A stretch of 64,000 bases of DNA from Verrucomicrobiaceae bacterium (GTDB lineage Bacteria > Verrucomicrobiota > Verrucomicrobiia > Verrucomicrobiales > Verrucomicrobiaceae): assembly GCA_016795485.1 (NCBI GenBank), contig JAEUHM010000054.1:124001-188000 (forward strand), in the 5' to 3' direction. Made by a program: the position numbers and the translations under genes. Numbering within the stretch: position 1 is the stretch's first letter; each line of letters begins with the position of its first letter. This document shows, in pieces, positions 9,601-60,932 of this stretch. The notes beneath the pieces are model-generated. The model saw only the letters and a program-made list of their open reading frames with translations, had not been told where the DNA came from and made no database searches.

Positions 9601-11366
9601 CCGCCATGCGTCACGGTCGTGTCACTGGCCTTCGGCTCGCCGAGTCGCAGGGCGCCGCTGCCGCTGAAGGTGTGCGCCGGAGTCGTGGCGCCATCAAAGC
9701 TCAGCGTTTGCAGGCTTTGATCGCTGTTGAGCGAAACACTCGTCGTGGTGCTCGGCATGTTAAAAACCGCTGCCATGCCGCCACTCGGCACACCTTCCGT
9801 GCCCCAGTTCGCTGCTTTGGACCAATCACCATCCACCGCGCCATGCCAGCCTGGCTTTTGATAGTAGCGTGCGTAGTCCCACGTCGCCTCGCTGGCATCC
9901 AGCTCCACGTTTTTCGTCAACCAATCGACCACCTTCGTGCTCAGGATCATCGCGGATGGCAGGATGCTCTCGACATCATTCATGCCGCTCGGTGGCGCGG
10001 TGTATTTCTTCACGCCGTTGATGAAAACGACCTGCGAGTTGTCCGTGCGCCACTCCAGGCCGATCACGACAAAGTTCGCCATGTTGCCGATGGTGCTGTT
10101 GTTTGCCGTGTAGTCCCAGGTGCGGCCCGGGAGGTGCCCCGAGTCGCGAGTCGGCAAAAAGTGATCCCACACGCCGAAGCCGAAATTGTTCGATGAGCCG
10201 TCCGCATCGCGATTGAAGAACTCCGGCGTGTCGATCTCATAACTGTGCAGGTAGTTGTCGATGGCCGAGGGCCAAAACGCCGTGTCCACGCCCATGGCAG
10301 GCACCTGCGGGATGCGCAGACGCACCTCGTAGTAGCCAAACTTCTGACTGCTGCGTGACACGATGCCGCCTTCCTCCCAGTTGGCCTCGTTTTGGATCTC
10401 CGCATTCGTCGCCGAGGCCAGTGGCGTGGTGCCGATCCATGTCGGGTTCAGATGCAAATGCCCGCCACTGACCGAATACCACTTCCGATCAAGAAATTGT
10501 GCCCACTTGGCCCCATCGAGCGTCGTTCCATCAAAATCCTCCTCCACCGCCGCGATGGTATAATCACGCGCCAGATCCGCATCCGGAGCCCACGGCCCGA
10601 TGCGCGGCACCAACTGCACTCCATCGGCGATCACATTGCCATTCGCGCCGTTGTTGCGAATCACCACCGACATCGTCGTGCCCGCCTCACACGGCACCGT
10701 GCCGATGCGATTCCACTGCCCGCCATTGATCTCCTGATTCACCGTCAACGTCCGCGTTTCATCTGCCAAAACGAGGTCGATGGGCGTGTTCGTCGCGCGA
10801 TTCGGATCCGCCGTCCAACGCACATACACATCATACATGCCACGAGCCGGAATCGTCGGCGTGAACGTGTAAGTCGCCGTCGGTGAGGCTCCACTGACCT
10901 GCGAGGCAAACAGCGACGCATTCCCATGCGATCCCGCAATACCAGATGCCGCCCAGGAACCCGTGAAGCTCACTCCCGCGCTCGTATTGCCCGCCGTCGC
11001 ATTATCAAGGATCAAACTCGGAGCCGCCCAAGCACTGCGCGGCGTTGATTCCGTTGCTCCCGTGAGAGCGGTGACACTGTAGAGATAGCGCGTGCCCACC
11101 GTGGCTGTGGAGTCCGTTTGCGTGAGAGAGGGGCTATTGCTAACGAGAGTCGTTGGAGCACTGGAGAGCGATTCAGCCCGCTTCACCGTATAACCCGTCG
11201 CCCCCACCACCGCCGACCAAGAGAGCGTGACCTGGTTGTTCGCCCCCGAAGCATCCACCGAAACGGTGGCCACCTGAGCGTGGAGCGATGAAACAATAAA
11301 AACGAGAAGCAGTGCAGCAAAGCCCACCCGGACTAAGCCATTCAAGGCAGCAACCTCCGTTGCCAT
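6570..11366 (-). CDS. Large exported GH16-like glycoside hydrolase with autotransporter-type repeats and DNRLRE domain
   Basis: A 1598-residue multidomain protein. Start ATG 11364-11366 gives a signal peptide (about 1-31). The order is: fibronectin III-like domain (32-115); golvesin/lyase-type carbohydrate-binding domain (about 120-250); GH16 concanavalin-fold domain (about 260-480) with the catalytic motif E377-I-D379-T-P-E382; beta-helical autotransporter-type repeats (about 490-1050, e.g. MLTLAGAHSFTGNATVEAGSM); Ig-like domain; DNRLRE-like domain (about 1170-1385); Ig-like domain; and a calcium-type DTADTDNDGTQNLLEYA motif near 1485. No outer-membrane barrel follows the repeats. It should cleave a beta-1,3 or beta-1,4 galactan or glucan outside the cell. 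The final 11 residues run into the next gene and may be read-through of a normal VTRP end. Confidence 0.85.
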   Translation of the reverse strand: MATEVAALNGLVRVGFAALLLVFIVSSLHAQVATVSVDASGANNQVTLSWSAVVGATGYTVKRAESLSSAPTTLVSNSPSLTQTDSTATVGTRYLYSVTALTGATESTPRSAWAAPSLILDNATAGNTSAGVSFTGSWAASGIAGSHGNASLFASQVSGASPTATYTFTPTIPARGMYDVYVRWTADPNRATNTPIDLVLADETRTLTVNQEINGGQWNRIGTVPCEAGTTMSVVIRNNGANGNVIADGVQLVPRIGPWAPDADLARDYTIAAVEEDFDGTTLDGAKWAQFLDRKWYSVSGGHLHLNPTWIGTTPLASATNAEIQNEANWEEGGIVSRSSQKFGYYEVRLRIPQVPAMGVDTAFWPSAIDNYLHSYEIDTPEFFNRDADGSSNNFGFGVWDHFLPTRDSGHLPGRTWDYTANNSTIGNMANFVVIGLEWRTDNSQVVFINGVKKYTAPPSGMNDVESILPSAMILSTKVVDWLTKNVELDASEATWDYARYYQKPGWHGAVDGDWSKAANWGTEGVPSGGMAAVFNMPSTTTSVSLNSDQSLQTLSFDGATTPAHTFSGSGALRLGEPKASDTTVTHGGILLNTEVQTNQTFNVPIVALQDVQFANASRKAGGVLTLNGAITGSGTQDVEFISAMPGIGATTLGQTVLGQPIGTGIRDVTKAGDATLALPANSQHSGKTAIARGGVSITAFSALGTSPTEPLVFRPNTRHSETYRPRLIYTGPAASISKPVAFTGYTADGVIEASGSGAMTWNGDVVITPKTSDPSRAPSANAFFTLGGTNTSDNTFAGNISDAGVSVTYNSVTTPVTLTLNKANGGVWVLTGTNSTKAALAVNGGRLFIGGGTSGSFDTPGVTVSTGAELGFGRDDAVSFSTPISGGGALRKRGAGMLTLAGAHSFTGNATVEAGSMNLTGILASGGTLSAGLSGRLTGNGVCNKAGSISGVLEAKGMTFSGTLQHFGNSELEAQFTANNSASIAPVSCGVLTITSGAKVDVVLNGPGSTANFAASYWRTARTIPLMTMTSRTGSFALGIVTNDSAGNAAATYGSFTLQQTSTAVNLVWTPIPGFPVIDDPTLSITSPTASTVALPDAAASLRLTATVGGNAVITWSLVSGPGTATFANASLSDTSVSFSTPGRYVLRATASNALGSVTQNITVDVAPPTSLTLRQGVSGYTHDATFIRADTTTWNSGARDQMLVGKNNSAFRSLIRFGLAGVPTYPVSAAQLDVWTDFAGTGSVQTLELRTLNRSFIEGAGNGTVATNGVGTGADWLTHDGAGTWSTAGGDLGSEVLASVPGFNAVTTVNTQQTFASSPAMVSAVTSAIAGGTSLNFTILSPLTEAGAANNFTRIASDDHATLARRPQLTITFSHPLLPSVDPGTAPSATVGENVALAGTVSNATTSAWSLVSGPGQVWFTTPTSIKFSAPGTHTLKLAATNALGESSRTLSIIVTGSAMTPIEIWRQTYFNNHTNAGPALDTADTDNDGTQNLLEYATAMNPASNDQVPLSAQKVGNTLEFIYTKNKSATDVTYTVEWSDDLVTWSTAGITSSILTDNPTTQQIKATVPAGVAKRFVHLKVTRPWLGDSFLFLPF

Positions 11367-11403
11367 GGTTGATAATCTATCAAGCCTGTGCCACGCTGAC
11401 GCC

Positions 11404-11661
11404 ATGAGTGCAGTCGCCCTGAAACTCCAACAAACTCTTGCCACCCTTGATCCAGCGGAAGCCTCGTTGCTGGAACGACTGGTCGATGATGCCTTGGCTC
11501 TGGTCCAACGACGGCCTGGCAAAACGCCTGATACCGCTGTCGATGCGAATGGCTGGCCGGTGGGATACTTCGAAGCGACGGCGGGGGCTTTTGCCAATGA
11601 GCCGTTTGACATGCCAGTGGATACCCCTCCCGAGCCAAACATGGCTGCTACTGAATGGTGA
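11404..11661 (+). CDS. Probable type II antitoxin partner of the PIN toxin
   Basis: An 85-residue protein whose stop overlaps the start of the PIN-domain gene, the usual arrangement of vapBC-type operons. The N-terminal half is helical (MSAVALKLQQTLATLDPAEA, LLERLVDDALALV). The C-terminal half has NGWPVGYFEATAGAFANEP, a GWP/GFFE pattern often seen in antitoxins that pair with VapC toxins. The start is placed at ATG 11404; an ATG at 11365 is also in frame but would overlap the divergent gene's own start codon. No ribosome site is visible for either. The call rests on position and the C-terminal pattern, as no named DNA-binding fold is clear. Confidence 0.7.
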   Translation: MSAVALKLQQTLATLDPAEASLLERLVDDALALVQRRPGKTPDTAVDANGWPVGYFEATAGAFANEPFDMPVDTPPEPNMAATEW

Positions 11662-12062
11662 TGCGATACCTCATCGACTCCAACATCTGGATCTATTACT
11701 TGAAGCGATCCGAGAGCCCTGTGCGTGCCCACTTGGCGCGGCATCCTGTTCATGACATCGCCGTCTGTTCGGTGATCTGGGCGGAACTGCTGCATGGGGC
11801 CAGAAAATATGACGATCCCGCGGCTCGCGAAGCCAAGATTCAGACGACTCTGTCTCCTTTTGCCAGCTGTGACTTCGATTTGGCATCTGCTCGCCACTAC
11901 GCCCACATTCGCGACGACTTGGAACGTGGTGGCTGCATCATTGGCAACAACGACCTCATGATCGCGGCCATTGCTCTGGCGAACGACTTGACCGTGGTGA
12001 CCAACAACGTCGATGAGTTCAGCCGCGTGCCCGGACTGAGGATCGAAGACTGGTCGGTGTAG
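11655..12062 (+). CDS. vapC: VapC-type PIN-domain ribonuclease toxin
   Basis: A 135-residue PIN-domain protein. The acidic metal-binding residues are in place: D8 (YLIDSN), E44 (VIWAELLHGAR), D100 (IGNNDLMIAA) and D120/E121 (VTNNVDEF). VapC enzymes cut specific RNAs, often initiator tRNA or rRNA, when the antitoxin is lost. Two starts are possible: ATG 11655, overlapping the antitoxin by 7 bases, or ATG 11661, giving the TGATG coupling typical of such pairs. The pair is the only plus-strand unit within 20 kb of minus-strand genes and ends 5 bases before the stop of the GH16-SGNH gene, which suggests insertion as a mobile module. Confidence 0.9.
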   Translation: MVMRYLIDSNIWIYYLKRSESPVRAHLARHPVHDIAVCSVIWAELLHGARKYDDPAAREAKIQTTLSPFASCDFDLASARHYAHIRDDLERGGCIIGNNDLMIAAIALANDLTVVTNNVDEFSRVPGLRIEDWSV

Positions 12063-53947: not shown

Positions 53948-54265
53948 TTACGACTTCTTCTCAACAGACTTCTTGGCAGTTTTTGTTGCGGCTTTTTTGG
54001 CCGCCTTTTTTGCTGTGGGTTTCTTTTCTGGCTCACTGGCCAGTTTCACGTTTGAAATGTGGATAGGACGCTGGATATCCACAAAACCACCTTGGGGATT
54101 TTTCTGGCTTGGGCGAACCGTCTTTTTGATCGTAGCGACTCCTTCAATCGTTACACGACCTTTTCCTGGCTGAACGCCAAGAATGGTTCCAGTAGCTCCT
54201 TTGAATGCGCCACTGATGACTTGGACCAGATCGCCTTTCTTCACATGGGTTTTGATACGGCTCAT
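53948..54265 (-). CDS. rplX: 50S ribosomal protein L24
   Basis: A 105-residue assembly-initiator protein. The KOW motif is in [37 protein letters not shown] follows. The last 30 residues are an Ala/Lys-rich tail ([19 protein letters not shown]), not usual in the family and probably RNA-binding. Its ATG overlaps the rplN stop (ATGA), so translation of the two is coupled. Confidence 0.96.
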
Positions 54266-54630
54266 AGCACTTCTGGGGCGAGCGAAACAATTTTCATGAA
54301 GTTCTTGTCGCGCAGCTCACGAGCGACAGGACCAAAAATGCGAGTTCCCTTTGGGTTGTTGTCTTTGTCGATGATCACGATAGCATTGCGATCAAAGCGA
54401 AGGATAGAACCATCAGGGCGGCGGATAGGGGCTGCGGTGCGAACGACCACTGCGCGCACGACTTCACCCTTCTTAACTGCTCCTGTTGGAGTGCTCTCGC
54501 GAACGTGAGCCGTGATGATATCACCGACGTGGGCGAAACGGCTGTTTTTCTTTCCGAGCACACCAATCATCTTGGCATGTCTGGCACCGGTATTGTCGGC
54601 AACCAGGATATCTGATTCCATTTGAAGCAT
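54262..54630 (-). CDS. rplN: 50S ribosomal protein L14
   Basis: A 122-residue protein at the subunit interface, exactly the usual length. Start ATG 54628-54630 opens [18 protein letters not shown], the family N-terminus, and has a real Shine-Dalgarno (CAGGAGAC ending 7 bases upstream), rare among ribosomal genes here. [18 protein letters not shown] and [14 protein letters not shown] confirm L14. Confidence 0.97.
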
Positions 54631-54652
54631 AAAACTTGTCTCCTGCTTTCCG

Positions 54653-54934
54653 TTAGTGTTTAAGCACCTCCACAAGGCTCCAGCGCTTGAGCTTGCTCAA
54701 TGGCCGAGTCTCTTCGATCAAGACCTTATCGCCTTCTTTGGCTGCCTCTTTGTCATCGTGAGCATAAAACTTGGACGTTTTACGCACGATCTTTTTGAAC
54801 TTTGGGTGAGGAACCCGGCGCTCGACCTCAACTACGATGGTCTTGCTCATTTTGTCTGAGACAACGACACCAACGCGCTGCTTGCGCACCGGAGCCTTGG
54901 CTGCTGGGGTTTCCTGGGTGGTAGTATCACTCAT
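54653..54934 (-). CDS. rpsQ: 30S ribosomal protein S17
   Basis: A 93-residue 16S rRNA-binding OB-fold protein. [29 protein letters not shown] and [17 protein letters not shown] are the standard blocks. About 20 extra residues rich in Thr, Ala and Lys precede the fold. It lies between rpmC and rplN in normal order. Confidence 0.96.
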
Positions 54935-54960
54935 GATAGTTTAGTTGGGTCGAAGAGTGA

Positions 54961-55173
54961 TTAGGCAGCTGCGGTAGCTGCCTTGCGACTGCGCTCGTTG
55001 ATGAGCGTAACCACACGAGCAACTTCACGGCGGATGAGACGGAGGCGAGATGGATTCTCCAATTGGCCACTCTGCTGCTGAAGGCGCAGATGCAACGCTT
55101 CCTGGAGCAGGTCCTTGCGGTGCTTCGAGAGCTCCTCAACGGACATTTCGCGCAGTTCCTTGATCTTCTTCAT
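54961..55173 (-). CDS. rpmC: 50S ribosomal protein L29
   Basis: A 70-residue helical-hairpin protein at the peptide exit. KKIKELREMSVEELSKHRKDL, LRLQQQSGQLENPSRLRLIRREVARVVTLI give the L29 pattern. It sits near the docking site for SRP and trigger factor. No ribosome site precedes the ATG. Confidence 0.96.
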   Translation of the reverse strand: MKKIKELREMSVEELSKHRKDLLQEALHLRLQQQSGQLENPSRLRLIRREVARVVTLINERSRKAATAAA

Positions 55174-55194
55174 GGTTTTAGGGATTGTAAATCG

Positions 55195-55614
55195 TTAATG
55201 GGCACCCTGACGGACGACGAAGCGAGTGCGGATGCCGAGTTTAGCTGCGGCGAGACGGCAAGCATCACGGGCTGTTGCCTCGTTAACTCCAGAGATTTCA
55301 AAAAGCATGGTGCCAGGGTAAACCACGGCCACCCAAAACTCAGGTGAACCCTTGCCCTTACCCATCCGTGTTTCTGGAGGACGTGCAGTAACCGGTTTGT
55401 GAGGAAATACCCGGATGAACACACGACCCTTACGCTTGAGGTCACGGGTAATGGCCACACGACAAGCCTCAATCTGATTGTTTTTGATCCAGCCGCGCTC
55501 TAGGCACTGAAGACCAAACTCACCGTAGTCGATCTTGTTGCAACTGCTTGCATTTCCTGCGCGGCTTCCGCGCTGGGTCTTGCGGTACTTTACTCTAGAA
55601 GGCAAAAGGGCCAT
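55195..55614 (-). CDS. rplP: 50S ribosomal protein L16
   Basis: A 139-residue protein near the A-site tRNA. It opens [16 protein letters not shown] and has [26 protein letters not shown] and [16 protein letters not shown], all standard. The length is normal. It lies 40 bases after rpsC. Confidence 0.97.
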
Positions 55615-55653
55615 GACGTGTCTTTATCTAAGGTTCTGGGATGAAAAATGAGT

Positions 55654-56466
55654 CTACTGAGCTACTGGAGATGGAACTTCGGCTGCAGCTACGACCTCTG
55701 CTTCGGGCGTGCCGCGAGCCGGACCCCTGCCGCGTCCACCACCGCCAGGTCCACGGCCACCGCCAGGTCCCCGACGATCACCAGGCTGACGCTCACGACG
55801 CTCACGGCGCTCACCACCTTGACGAGGGGCGCTGGTGTCGAGGTCTGGACGCTTATTCAGCCAGACTTTGACTCCAATGATCCCGTAAACTGTCTTTGCC
55901 TCGGCAAATCCATAATCAATTGGGATCCGCAGAGTTTGGAGAGGTACTTTACCCTGGCGATACCATTCCGCACGAGCAATGTCACCACCGCCAAGACGGC
56001 CAGAACAACGGATTCGGATGCCATCGGCGCCAAACTCCATGGCAGTCTGCACGGCTCGCTTCATCGCACGACGGAACGAAATACGACGCTCGAGTTGGAC
56101 AGCGACTGTCTCTGCTACGAGTTGTGCATCTAGTTCTGGCTGCTTGATCTCAAAGATATCGATCTTAACTTGCTTACCGCCACACATCTCGGAAATCTTT
56201 GCGCTCATCACGTCGATCTCCTGGCCCTTGCGACCAATAACTAGGCCTGGGCGAGCTGTATGAAGAGTCACCCGCACAAGGTTCCATGCGCGTTCGATCA
56301 CGATGCGAGCAATAGCGGCCTGCATCAGCTTGTCTTTGAGGTATTTGCGGATGGCAATGTCACTGTGTAGGAAGTCTGCAAACTCCTTCTCAGGAGCATA
56401 CCACTTAGAACGCCAGTCCTTCTGAACTGCGAGGCGGAAACCGATTGGATTGACTTTTTGTCCCAT
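55654..56466 (-). CDS. rpsC: 30S ribosomal protein S3 with RG-rich tail
   Basis: A 270-residue protein of the mRNA entry channel. [25 protein letters not shown], the KH-domain [18 protein letters not shown] and the C-domain block [25 protein letters not shown] are the family features. The usual fold ends near residue 212; about 55 extra residues follow, with many Arg-Arg and Gly-rich repeats ([16 protein letters not shown]). This disordered basic tail is uncommon and may contact rRNA. Confidence 0.97.
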
Positions 56467-56493
56467 GATGTTTGGTGCGAACGGTTCTAACTA

Positions 56494-56928
56494 TTAGGAA
56501 TCTTGAGCCTTGCGTGCGCGCTTGGCTTTTGGCTTTTCGGTGGACACGACTTCGGCCGCACTAGCTGCCTTGGCGCCATCTTTTTTCTCAGACTCTGGCT
56601 TTTGGTCCAAAATCACGGTGATGTGAGTCATCCGCTTCTTGATCGCTGCCGCAGAACCACGAGCACGTGGCATAATGCGACTGAGCGAAGGTCCTTCAGT
56701 AGCAGTAGCGCTTTTCACGATCAATGTATCTGGATCGATCTCGTGATTGTTCTCAGCATTGGCAACGGCCGATTGAAGAGTCTTGCCAACCAAGAAGGCG
56801 GCTTTCTTCGGAGTGTAGGCCAGAACGGCGAGCGCGTTGGAAACTGGCATTCCCTGAATGGCGCGGGTCACTTCGCGAGCCTTGAGGCAGGAGATCCGCG
56901 CATACTTATAGACTGACTTTACTTGCAT
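56494..56928 (-). CDS. rplV: 50S ribosomal protein L22
   Basis: A 144-residue protein lining the exit tunnel. YARISCLKAREVTRAIQGM, LAVLAYTPKKAAFLVGKTLQSAVANAENN, GPSLSRIMPRARGSAAAIKKRMTHITVIL are the standard blocks. A 35-residue Lys/Ala/Glu tail extends the usual end. Normally it directly follows rpsS; here an unknown gene comes between, and rplV starts 18 bases after that gene's stop. Confidence 0.97.
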   Translation of the reverse strand: MQVKSVYKYARISCLKAREVTRAIQGMPVSNALAVLAYTPKKAAFLVGKTLQSAVANAENNHEIDPDTLIVKSATATEGPSLSRIMPRARGSAAAIKKRMTHITVILDQKPESEKKDGAKAASAAEVVSTEKPKAKRARKAQDS

Positions 56929-56946
56929 AACGACAACGGTGGGGGC

Positions 56947-57786
56947 TTAAAATGCTCGATTGGGGTCAATTTGGCCGCGATCACCAACGGTGGGCACAGC
57001 ACCTTGGGCCAAAGATTCTTGAACGACGGCACCGCAAACTGATTTGCGAACGTCTACTACTAAAACTTGTGCGATAGGCTGTTCACCACGGTATAACGTG
57101 AAGGGCATTCCAACCCGAACGCCTTGCCGCGAACCTACGTTTAACACGGTCAATGCTGCCTCCGGCTTCCATGACACCACCTTGGCGTTGTGAAGGTCAG
57201 TTGCGCTTTCTGATGTAGTTCCTGCACCACTTGAGGTTCGAACAGCCTCCTCAGCGCGGCTAAGAGCCACATCGAGCGCCCCCTTTGAAGACGCATCATT
57301 GTTTTTTGCAAACACCAATGCAGCCTCCGAGAGCGCCATTAGGGCATCGGTGACATTACGCTTTTGATCGTCGACGATACGAAGATCAGAAAGAGCAGCC
57401 AACAATTTCTCTTGGACTTGATCACGACTACCTTCCAATGCGCCAATGCCGAGGCCCTCAAGGACAGTCCGCAATTTCTCGAACTGCTCACGAGCCTGGG
57501 CGGCATCGCTATTGGCTGCAGCAACGGACTGCGTCAAAGTGGTGATCTGAACTTTAGAAGCGGCTAGCTGTGCTTCAAGCTCACGAATCTGACGCGCAGA
57601 TGCCTCAAGCGTGGTCTTTAGTTCAAGTAACTCAATGTTACCCGATTCACCACTCTGTTGAGCAGGCGACAACGGTGACCACGCAAGAACCAACACAATT
57701 GATATCCCAAACCAGCAACGAACTGCCCCAGCGACCGCAGTTGCTGCGGCGCGAGTTTGTTCGTAATGCTGGGAATGGGTAAACAT
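56947..57786 (-). CDS. Exported coiled-coil protein inserted in the S10 operon, unknown function
   Basis: A 279-residue protein that I do not recognise. A signal or anchor helix lies at about 27-45 (FGISIVLVLAWSPLSPAQ). Residues about 50-105 are a strong coiled coil (LLELKTTLEASARQIRELEAQLAASK), with further helices to about 190. The C-terminal part (about 205-275) has AALTVLNVGSRQGVRVGMPFTLYRG and AQVLVVDVRKSVCGAVV, a small beta domain seen in other exported Verrucomicrobia proteins and like the FlgT C-terminus. It lies between rpsS (17 bases) and rplV (18 bases), two genes that are adjacent in almost all bacteria. It must be transcribed with them. The start at 57786 has no visible ribosome site. 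Confidence 0.8.
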   Translation of the reverse strand: MFTHSQHYEQTRAAATAVAGAVRCWFGISIVLVLAWSPLSPAQQSGESGNIELLELKTTLEASARQIRELEAQLAASKVQITTLTQSVAAANSDAAQAREQFEKLRTVLEGLGIGALEGSRDQVQEKLLAALSDLRIVDDQKRNVTDALMALSEAALVFAKNNDASSKGALDVALSRAEEAVRTSSGAGTTSESATDLHNAKVVSWKPEAALTVLNVGSRQGVRVGMPFTLYRGEQPIAQVLVVDVRKSVCGAVVQESLAQGAVPTVGDRGQIDPNRAF

Positions 57787-57803
57787 CAGAATGAAGCGAT
57801 AGA

Positions 57804-58082
57804 TTACTTGGTTGCCTTAGCGGTATGTGCACCGTGAGCCTTGAATACACGGGTCGTAGCAAACTCGCCCAATCGGTGCCCAACCATGTTCTCCGTTGCA
57901 TACACGCTGACGAAGTCCTTACCGTTGTGCACAAGGAAGGTATGACCAACGAGGTCAGGCGTGATCATGGAGGCGCGTGACCAAGTTTTGACAGGACGCT
58001 TTAGCTTAGCGTCGTTGAGTGCATCGACCTTAGCCAGAAGCTTCTGGTGGACGTAGGGACCCTTTTTGAGCGAGCGAGGCAT
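57804..58082 (-). CDS. rpsS: 30S ribosomal protein S19
   Basis: A 92-residue 16S rRNA-binding protein of normal length. [31 protein letters not shown]-like [38 protein letters not shown] and KLGEFATTR-like [14 protein letters not shown] identify it. It follows rplB by 21 bases and is followed by the unknown coiled-coil gene. Confidence 0.97.
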
Positions 58083-58103
58083 AAATTTAGTTCAGAACGA
58101 AGA

Positions 58104-58940
58104 TTACTTGGAGTTGCGGCGGCTAACGATAAAGCGGCTCGTCGCCTTCTTGGGTTGACGAGTCTTCTCGCCCTTAGCGTGTCCCCATGGGGACAGAAGG
58201 TGTTGGCGTCCACCACCGGACTTCGAACGACCTTCACCACCACCGTTCGGGTGATCGATTGGGTTCATGCACATACCACGCACAGTCGGGCGAGTGCCCT
58301 GCCAACGAGTACGGCCAGCTTTACCGGAAACCACGTTCATGTGCTCAGAGTTGCCAACTTTACCGACAGTCGCGTAGCAAGTTGCCTTGATCTTGCGAAC
58401 TTCTCCCGATGGCATCTTAACGAGAGCATAGTCACCTTCACGGTTGGAAAGGATCGCCTCTTGCCCAGCAGCCCGTGCGACTACGCCACCGCGACCAGGC
58501 TGGAGCTCAATATTGTGGATGCTTGTTCCCAGTGGAATCTTGCCAAGAGGAAGAGCGTTACCCACTTCAGGAGCAGCCTTTTCGCCAGCAATCACAGACG
58601 CACCGACTTCAAGGCCAATTGGAGCAAGAATGTATGCTTTTTCTCCATCAGCATATTGAATCAGAGCAATACGTGCAGAGCGGTTCGGATCATATTCGAT
58701 ACCAATCACTTTGGCGGCCACATCATGACGAGAGCGCTTGAAGTCGATCAGACGATAACGTCTTCTGTGCCCACCGCCGATATGGCGACAAGTGATGCGA
58801 CCAGTGTTATTACGACCACCAGACTTGCGCAAGGCAACGGTCAATGACCGTTCTGGCTTGTCTTTGGTCACCTCATCAAATGAGTTCCACTGCTTGTAGC
58901 GGTTGGTGGGAGTATTGGGCTTGAATGCTTTGAGCGCCAT
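58104..58940 (-). CDS. rplB: 50S ribosomal protein L2
   Basis: A 278-residue protein needed for peptidyl transfer and subunit joining. Blocks: [79 protein letters not shown]-like [21 protein letters not shown] and the invariant [18 protein letters not shown] near the C-terminus. Length is normal. rplW follows upstream 60 bases away. Confidence 0.97.
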
Positions 58941-59000
58941 GGCTGCGATTCGGTTAAAGGTTGTTCGCTGACTTAAGCGAGTGCTGGCGAGGAAAAGAGG

Positions 59001-59285
59001 TTATACGAGGTCGATGCGCTCGCCGTCCTTCAGACGCACGATAGCTTTCTTCCAGTGATTAGTGCGTCCGTAGTCTGCGCGGCGCTCCCGCTTGGCTTTA
59101 CCACCAAACTGAGCTGTGCGAACAGCGACAACTGTTTTCCCGAAAAGCTTTTCAACAGCCTGACGGATTTCCACTTTAGTGGCCTTTGGATCGACCTTAA
59201 AGACGAACTCGTTGTTTTTCTCGCCGAGGAGGGTGGCCTTCTCAGTCAAACGGATGTTCTTGATGACTTGATAGAGATCTTGCAT
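59001..59285 (-). CDS. rplW: 50S ribosomal protein L23
   Basis: A 94-residue protein at the tunnel exit, the main docking site for trigger factor and SRP. YQVIKNIRLTEKATLLGEKNNEFVFKVDPKATKVEIRQAVEKLFG is the family core (positions about 5-50), and GRTNHWKKAIVRLKDGERID ends it. It lies 9 bases after rplD. Confidence 0.96.
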   Translation of the reverse strand: MQDLYQVIKNIRLTEKATLLGEKNNEFVFKVDPKATKVEIRQAVEKLFGKTVVAVRTAQFGGKAKRERRADYGRTNHWKKAIVRLKDGERIDLV

Positions 59286-59294
59286 GGCGAGAAG

Positions 59295-59900
59295 TTAAGC
59301 GGTCCTCCGAGCGAGGGTTTCGAGTGCATCGGCCGTTATTACGACCTTTTCAAAATTGAGGAGTTGTTCAGCATTGACTTCGTCAGCACTGATAAGCTGG
59401 ACAGACTGGACATTGCGGCCTGCCCGGAAGGTGTTCTCATCGAAACGTCCACCCACGATCAGCACCTTACGGCTGTCAGTGATAGCTTTGACCGCTGACA
59501 CAAAGCTCCTGGTCTTTCCATCTGGGATGCTGATACCATCAACACTCAAAACAGCACCGTCGTTGATCCGAGCCGTGAGCGCAGCACGAAAAGCAAGTTG
59601 ACGCGCTTTCCGGTTGGTCTTCTTCGAATAGTCACGAGTGCGAGGACCAAAAACGGTGGCACCGCCACTCCAAATCGGGCTCCGGCGGCTACCCATACGG
59701 GCATTACCAGTTCCCTTTTGCTTCCAGAGTTTCTTACCGGATCCAGCCACTTCTCCACGACGCTTCGTGTGAGCGGTTCCCTGACGACGGTTTGCACGAT
59801 ACGCGACCAGGGTCTCATGAAGAGCCTGTGCACCTTCCCCCGAGTCAGTTAGATTGAGATTTGCGGCCTGTGCGGCCTGCGATGAAAAGACGGTTGCCAT
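59295..59900 (-). CDS. rplD: 50S ribosomal protein L4
   Basis: A 201-residue tunnel protein. Blocks: LVAYRANRRQGTAHTKRRGEVAGSGKKLWKQKGTGNARMGSRRSPIWSGGATVFGP is the long conserved loop region (about 31-86), then LAFRAALTARI and VLIVGGRFDENTFRAGRNV. Its ATG has a clear GGAGG ten bases upstream, unlike most of its neighbours. In E. coli L4 represses the S10 operon; whether this occurs here is unknown. Confidence 0.97.
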   Translation of the reverse strand: MATVFSSQAAQAANLNLTDSGEGAQALHETLVAYRANRRQGTAHTKRRGEVAGSGKKLWKQKGTGNARMGSRRSPIWSGGATVFGPRTRDYSKKTNRKARQLAFRAALTARINDGAVLSVDGISIPDGKTRSFVSAVKAITDSRKVLIVGGRFDENTFRAGRNVQSVQLISADEVNAEQLLNFEKVVITADALETLARRTA

Positions 59901-59924
59901 GTTGTTTTGCCTCCGTGGTTAAAC

Positions 59925-60581
59925 TTACTTGTTCTCCGGCTGGGCTTTCTTCTTTGCCGCCCGGATGATTACATATGTGCCCTTGTTTCCAGGAACGCTG
60001 CCCGAGACGAGCAAAACTCCCTCTTCAGGACGGCTCTGGACAATCTCAAGATTTTGCACGGTCCGACGCACCACACCCATGTGACCTGGCATCTTCTGGT
60101 TCTTCCAAACCAAACCAGGAGTCAAACGACAACCGATGGAACCCGTTCGGCGATGCATCATGTGTCCGTGTGCGGCGGGTTGACCAGCAAAGTTGTGGCG
60201 CTTAACCACACCCTGGAATCCCTTTCCTTTCGTCACTCCGATCACATCAACAGGAGCGCCAGCAACAAAAGCCTCAGGTCCAAGCTTTGCACCTGCTTGA
60301 GGCAGCTGATCATCTCCGGCCACGCGAAACTCAACGATCTTGCGCTTTGGAGCCTCAGCACCCCACTTCTTGAAGTGGCCGAGTTGAGCTTTGTTCATGC
60401 GCTTCTCCTTTTGGTCATCAAAACCAACCTGAACTGCGCTGTAGCCATCCTTCTCTGCGGATTTTTTTACCTGTAACACTTGATTGCCAGCCACCGAGAT
60501 GACGGTCACCGCAACTGCGCTACCGTCAGCTTTGTAGATTTGCGTCATTCCAAGTTTTTTCCCAATAAGACCGAGACTCAT
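59925..60581 (-). CDS. rplC: 50S ribosomal protein L3
   Basis: A 218-residue early assembly protein. MSLGLIGKKLGMTQIYKADG is the standard start. IGVTKGKGFQGVVKRHNFAGQPAAHGHMMHRRTGSIG (middle) and KMPGHMGVVRRTVQNLEI contain the conserved glutamine loop region reaching the peptidyl-transferase centre. Length is normal. It follows rpsJ by 42 bases. Confidence 0.97.
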   Translation of the reverse strand: MSLGLIGKKLGMTQIYKADGSAVAVTVISVAGNQVLQVKKSAEKDGYSAVQVGFDDQKEKRMNKAQLGHFKKWGAEAPKRKIVEFRVAGDDQLPQAGAKLGPEAFVAGAPVDVIGVTKGKGFQGVVKRHNFAGQPAAHGHMMHRRTGSIGCRLTPGLVWKNQKMPGHMGVVRRTVQNLEIVQSRPEEGVLLVSGSVPGNKGTYVIIRAAKKKAQPENK

Positions 60582-60623
60582 ACTTTTAGTTTCTCTATTG
60601 TTGCGTTCGATTAGAGCCCAAAA

Positions 60624-60932
60624 CTAGATCCGAATCGTGATGTCCACGCCGGAAGGAAGATTAAGCTTCTTCAACTCGTCGACTGTGCGAGCGGTTGGGT
60701 CTACAATGTCCAGCAGGCGCTTATGCGTGCGGATCTCAAATTGATCCATCGACTTCTTGTCGACGTGAGGCGAACGGTTCACCGTGAACTTTTCGATTCG
60801 TGTAGGAAGCGGAATGGGACCTGCCACCTTAGCGCCAGTGCGCTTGGCCGTCTCCACAATATCCGCCGTGGACTTGTCCAGCGTCCTGTAGTCATAGGCC
60901 CGGAGGCGGATTCTTATTCTTTGGTTCTGCAT
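60624..60932 (-). CDS. rpsJ: 30S ribosomal protein S10
   Basis: A 102-residue protein of normal length. [57 protein letters not shown] covers the family core (about 4-60), then [23 protein letters not shown]. It starts the S10 series; fusA lies 44 bases upstream, so no tuf gene stands between them. S10 also serves in transcription antitermination with NusB in many bacteria. Confidence 0.97.

Follow-up and report, generated by a model that had tools for sequence, protein, structure and literature searches.

The window analyzed here, a stretch of 64,000 nucleotides from a Verrucomicrobiaceae bacterium, carries on its minus strand an S10 operon running into the start of the spc operon. The genes lie in the order rpsJ, rplC, rplD, rplW, rplB, rpsS, X, rplV, rpsC, rplP, rpmC, rpsQ, rplN, rplX, which is the order found in Escherichia coli except for the gene that we call X. 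X is an open reading frame of 840 bases with an ATG start and 279 codons, separated from rpsS by 17 bp and from rplV by 18 bp; the spacing between rpsS and rplV in E. coli K-12 is 14 bp. An earlier note on this DNA had described a gene of this size and spacing, and the ORFs of the window confirm it. The presence of homologues, the recurrence of the rpsS-X-rplV order and the low omega values presented below argue that X is a real gene. Within the same operon, rpsC (55654-56466, minus strand) encodes an Arg/Gly-rich C-terminal tail, at approximately residues 215-255, extending past the part that is conserved in relatives. The coordinates of the features are collected in the table.

Table. Features at the X locus, with positions in the window, and the loci at which split S10 operons were read.
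Feature	Position	Strand	Basis
Gene X, exported coiled-coil protein (predicted) with C-terminal TsaP/FlgT-like beta domain, 279 aa	56947..57786	-	
rpsS (ribosomal protein S19), upstream neighbor of X in the operon	57804..58082	-	
rplV (ribosomal protein L22), downstream neighbor of X; partner kept in split operons	56494..56928	-	
Operon region around X, from the S10 genes into the start of spc	53948..60932	-	
N-terminal hydrophobic export signal (predicted), residues 1-42; possible signal-peptidase site S-P-A↓Q (by eye)	57661..57786	-	sequence
Long helices/coiled coil, residues 50-187, variable	57226..57639	-	AlphaFold
C-terminal beta domain, residues 198-275	56962..57195	-	alignment, profile, model
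Split-operon loci	L227-L246, L257-L265 (rplV side); L247-L256 (rpsS side)		

The protein has three parts, comprising a hydrophobic N-terminus, a helical section and a compact C-terminal domain. A hydrophobic N-terminal segment is found in 229 of 242 homologue ORFs; the start codons of these ORFs were set mechanically, and several of the 13 exceptions are such starts or contig ends. We therefore predict that X carries a Sec-type signal or anchor. The AlphaFold model (mean pLDDT 85) places helices at residues 50-111, 121-161 and 165-187, followed by the beta domain from approximately residue 198. The coil is not present in every family. Short forms of X of about 110-130 aa, comprising the signal and the beta domain, occur in families f13, f17, f39, f47 and f50 of the same class, and the f44 protein is also short if its start is placed downstream.

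The beta domain contains three residues, G218, R247 and G268, that are invariant in 49 homologues, and when modeled alone it gives a pLDDT of 94.6. The best matches to this model in the PDB are structures of FlgT (8z5n and 3w1e), with TMq of 0.68-0.71 and 13-14% sequence identity, so that the fold resembles that of the FlgT C-terminal domain. FlgT_C is also the commonest Pfam match of the beta domains (22 of 49), and weak matches to this family (PF16538) were obtained for 27 of 58 full-length homologues, with E = 1.3e-6 for the best homologue. The X protein of the window itself gave no match to FlgT_C with E up to 10 for the whole protein or 0.1 for the beta domain alone, and no FlgT_C match was found in the genome from which the window comes. 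A profile search matched the beta domain to TsaP of the Myxococcus pilus machine (3jc8) with E = 3.5e-6, the match covering only part of the profile (positions 11-53). The description of X as an exported or membrane-anchored coiled-coil protein with a FlgT-C-like beta domain, originally made from the sequence of the window, is thus supported by AlphaFold, Foldseek, Pfam and the TsaP profile match. Related domains occur elsewhere. The window's own genome (G000:C14) encodes a paralogous pair of tandem membrane-anchored coiled-coil proteins of 261 and 371 aa (L267:9960-10745 and 10813-11928), both ending, or nearly ending, in a domain like the beta domain of X, and a similar protein of 271 aa is encoded at L301:4702-5517 in a genome that is probably Akkermansia (G047).

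The rpsS-X-rplV order was sought in genomes across Verrucomicrobia. Within the order to which the window belongs, homologues of X were found in 55 of 57 genomes and in all 49 of those of good quality; the two members lacking a homologue have assemblies of 75% and 87% completeness. All the loci read in the order show rpsS-X-rplV (L052 being settled by profile), with a single exception, where the contig stops upstream of X. A further 110 loci were read, mostly from named genomes (Prosthecobacter, Brevifollis, Chthoniobacterales, Candidatus Udaeobacter and others), some of which are genomes already included among the 57. Both neighbors are present in the same order in 107 of these, and the remaining three reach a contig end after X. 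At the level of the class, even a single-sequence query gave matches to X in 164 of 285 genomes, and X lies between rpsS and rplV in all 19 further loci read. Across the phylum the X profile matches 180 of 289 genomes, although some of these matches are paralogues. When 181 genomes were read at the locus itself, 131 from 44 families had an intact operon with X and 21 an intact operon without it, while the operon was split with X in 21 and split without X in five, and cut by a contig end in three. The feature is therefore wider than the earlier note supposed, being found in most of the phylum and persisting where the operon is split. The homologues that we identified all appear to belong to Verrucomicrobia, the one phylum searched. 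In the open-access literature we found no description of the rpsS-X-rplV order, nor of an Akkermansia locus tag or mutant of X.

In a sample of 135 genomes drawn evenly from the phylum, with the positions of rpsS and rplV tallied by hand, there are three ARRANGEMENTS at rpsS/rplV. An X-sized gap is present in 43, the genes are adjacent without X in 41, and in 45 they lie on different contigs or far apart; six could not be judged. The statement that rpsS and rplV are adjacent in almost all bacteria thus needs a limit, since in this phylum plain adjacency is one of three arrangements. Five of the 45 separated pairs (G332, G359, G383, G406 and G409) lie on a single contig, and these must be real breaks rather than assembly ends. 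In gene maps of the split operons, rpsS is the last gene of the first half, and the second half opens with X-rplV-rpsC. X is directly upstream of rplV in 21 of the 26 split loci read, with a gap of 1-117 bp in the 20 measured. In the tree of ribosomal proteins one large clade of 22 rows is split or contig-cut throughout. The break between rpsS and X/rplV is found in this clade and, by the tree, arose separately in f70, f90 and possibly f82; the place of f82 in the tree, beside the outgroup, is unsure.

This tree was calculated from rplB, rpsS, rplV and rpsC with 111 rows, with SH-aLRT as the sole measure of branch support. It requires at least ten changes in the presence of X and at least four in the split state. 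The simplest reading is one early gain followed by about nine losses, because X occurs in all the main clades, although gains and losses cannot be told apart merely by counting changes. With that number of losses X cannot be indispensable. Two reduced genomes of 0.9 Mb in family f19 (G072 and G080, loci L206 and L207) have lost X and retain gaps of 148 and 313 bp in its place; no recognizable remnant of a degraded X was seen in these gaps on inspection by eye. A relative with a genome of 2.5 Mb (L290) has X intact.

Where X is present, the evidence points to a gene that is maintained. Pairwise distances for X correlate with those of the ribosomal proteins with a Spearman coefficient of 0.76, compared with a maximum of 0.16 in 200 permutations, and X evolves approximately 3.3 times faster than they do. 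The history of X thus appears to match that of the ribosomal proteins, consistent with vertical descent. Of ten close pairs, eight give omega values of 0.05-0.13 and the other two 0.20 and 0.36, indicative of strong purifying selection. The homologues that were read as single ORFs showed no frameshifts. An alternative raised when the gene was first noticed, that it could be a lineage marker, holds in the sense that X is a conserved feature of the lineage. Passive insertion we judge unlikely in view of the selection, the vertical history and the retention of X after operon splits.

The earlier note also held that X must be transcribed with the ribosomal genes at a high level. X lies on the same strand as its neighbors with small gaps and no internal terminator, as expected for a gene of the S10 operon, and no promoter-like or terminator-like site was found in the 4 kb of operon around it (55400-59400). 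With no such site between the genes, co-transcription is likely. The high level is not supported, however, as the codon usage of X is ordinary. Its codon adaptation is 0.660, and 61% of 206 background ORFs, drawn from the window and 14 stretches of 20 kb each, score higher. By comparison, nine of 14 ribosomal and fusA genes fall in the top 3%, and most of its S10 neighbors in the top 1-10%. X is the least adapted gene in the loci of 43 of 73 relatives, with a mean z of -2.28. Such codon usage means that X may be made at far below the level of the ribosomal proteins; probably it is carried on the ribosomal transcript and translated less.

The likeness of the beta domain to FlgT might suggest a flagellar function. 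FlgI, however, is absent from the window's genome and from 121 of the 135 sampled genomes, being found in just 14, and this rules out a flagellar role for X. None of the three candidate partners whose presence was compared with that of X (MreC, secretin and FlgI) tracks it closely.

The TsaP match raises the possibility that X is a secretin collar, which would ring or anchor the secretin in the outer membrane, either that of a type IV pilus or that of a type II secretion system. TsaP touches secretin rings peripherally, with a suggested role in fastening them to the wall (PMC4471445), and a secretin is encoded in every X-bearing genome of the 135-genome sample. The only four genomes without a secretin (G062, G069, G077 and G085, all of family f12) also lack X. 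Yet the linkage is one-way, so that a strict association of X with secretins is rejected; many X-less genomes have secretins, and the co-occurrence thus gives weak support for a TsaP-like role. Moreover, X does not adjoin secretin genes, TsaP-type domains are known in other contexts too, and no LysM peptidoglycan-binding domain was found among the Pfam matches of the window's X with E up to 10. We regard such a collar as rather unlikely. We give slightly less credence to X as a scaffold for cell shape or wall synthesis like MreC, its dose following growth. The layout of membrane signal, coil and barrel is similar, MreC is the second structural match of the beta-domain model (TMq 0.50, a partial barrel), and the MreC Pfam family matches five of 49 beta domains. 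Against this, the coil is missing in some families, and the X of the window scores 18.2 bits against the NCBIfam/Pfam MreC model, for which the cut-off is 343. Of the 135 genomes, 119 encode a canonical MreC as a separate protein, that of the window among them. Genus g12 (probably Akkermansia) is represented by 14 genomes in the sample (e.g., G047, G049 and G149); none of them has MreC, which is otherwise nearly general in the phylum, and all keep X. X can therefore work without the MreC system, and a dependence on MreC is ruled out.

Two further explanations would place less weight on what the protein does. X might be a minor gene inserted once that survives passively because breaking the operon is costly. 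Its ordinary codon usage and its losses, including those in the reduced genomes, would fit such a marker. However, loss of X is clearly harmless to the operon, so that X must itself be under selection to have survived in 44 families, and the low omega and the retention beside rplV after the operon has broken also oppose this; we think it unlikely, to nearly the same degree as the collar. Alternatively the position could matter more than the protein, with the translation of a signal peptide in mid-operon bringing the mRNA of the ribosomal genes to the membrane by transertion, or tuning the output between the two halves of the operon. This would account for export and mid-operon place being kept together, and for a constant signal when coil and length vary widely. 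It is the least probable of these readings, since invariant beta-domain residues across the phylum together with low omega indicate selection on the X protein itself. Furthermore, X persists ahead of rplV where it is no longer in mid-operon, and its loss is tolerated.

The explanation we prefer, to which we give about an even chance, is that X is a long-established component of the envelope, made from the S10 operon and exported by Sec, the supply of which follows growth rate. X would be transcribed with the ribosomal genes, exported by the Sec system and remain in the periplasm, secreted or anchored. There the coiled coil would probably oligomerize the protein, and the TsaP/FlgT-type beta domain would probably dock onto a ring-shaped or wall-bound machine. 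Co-transcription with ribosomal genes would tie the supply of X to the rate of growth, and this coupling may be what keeps X in the operon. We hold more tentatively, as possible though on balance doubtful, a stronger form in which X is a dedicated periplasmic scaffold whose supply became firmly tied to ribosome synthesis early in the history of the phylum, a counterpart of SecY in the spc operon that stays with rplV after breaks.

These results bear on the question of how bacteria match envelope growth to the production of ribosomes, and if the explanation we prefer is correct X would be a component of the envelope that the cell supplies in step with its ribosomes. Of all ribosomal operons the S10 operon is the most conserved, and selection appears to have kept an exported protein within it across much of a phylum. 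Since X is kept in the operon, and by rplV after breaks, the link between envelope and ribosome could be tested in a cultivated member. X also provides a marker at the level of the phylum, and its site is a natural break point of the S10 operon, with a bearing on the evolution of gene order.

X can be compared with four known systems. The C-terminal domain of FlgT, an H-ring protein of Vibrio flagella, has the same fold of about 80 residues, although the N-terminal domains of FlgT are missing from X. TsaP, the secretin-associated protein of type IV pili, is exported like X and has a C-terminal domain that matches its beta domain. TsaP has an N-terminal LysM domain (judged from PDB names), whereas X has a coiled coil or nothing in front of the beta domain, and is encoded in the S10 operon. 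MreC, the cell-shape protein, shares with X the succession of membrane signal, coiled coil and beta barrel, but X has only one barrel domain and coexists with a canonical MreC in most genomes. A parallel in genomic position is secY in the spc operon, which like X is an envelope-related, non-ribosomal gene inside a ribosomal-protein operon. Unlike SecY, which is universal and has an understood link to translation, X is predicted to be exported and is dispensable in some lineages.
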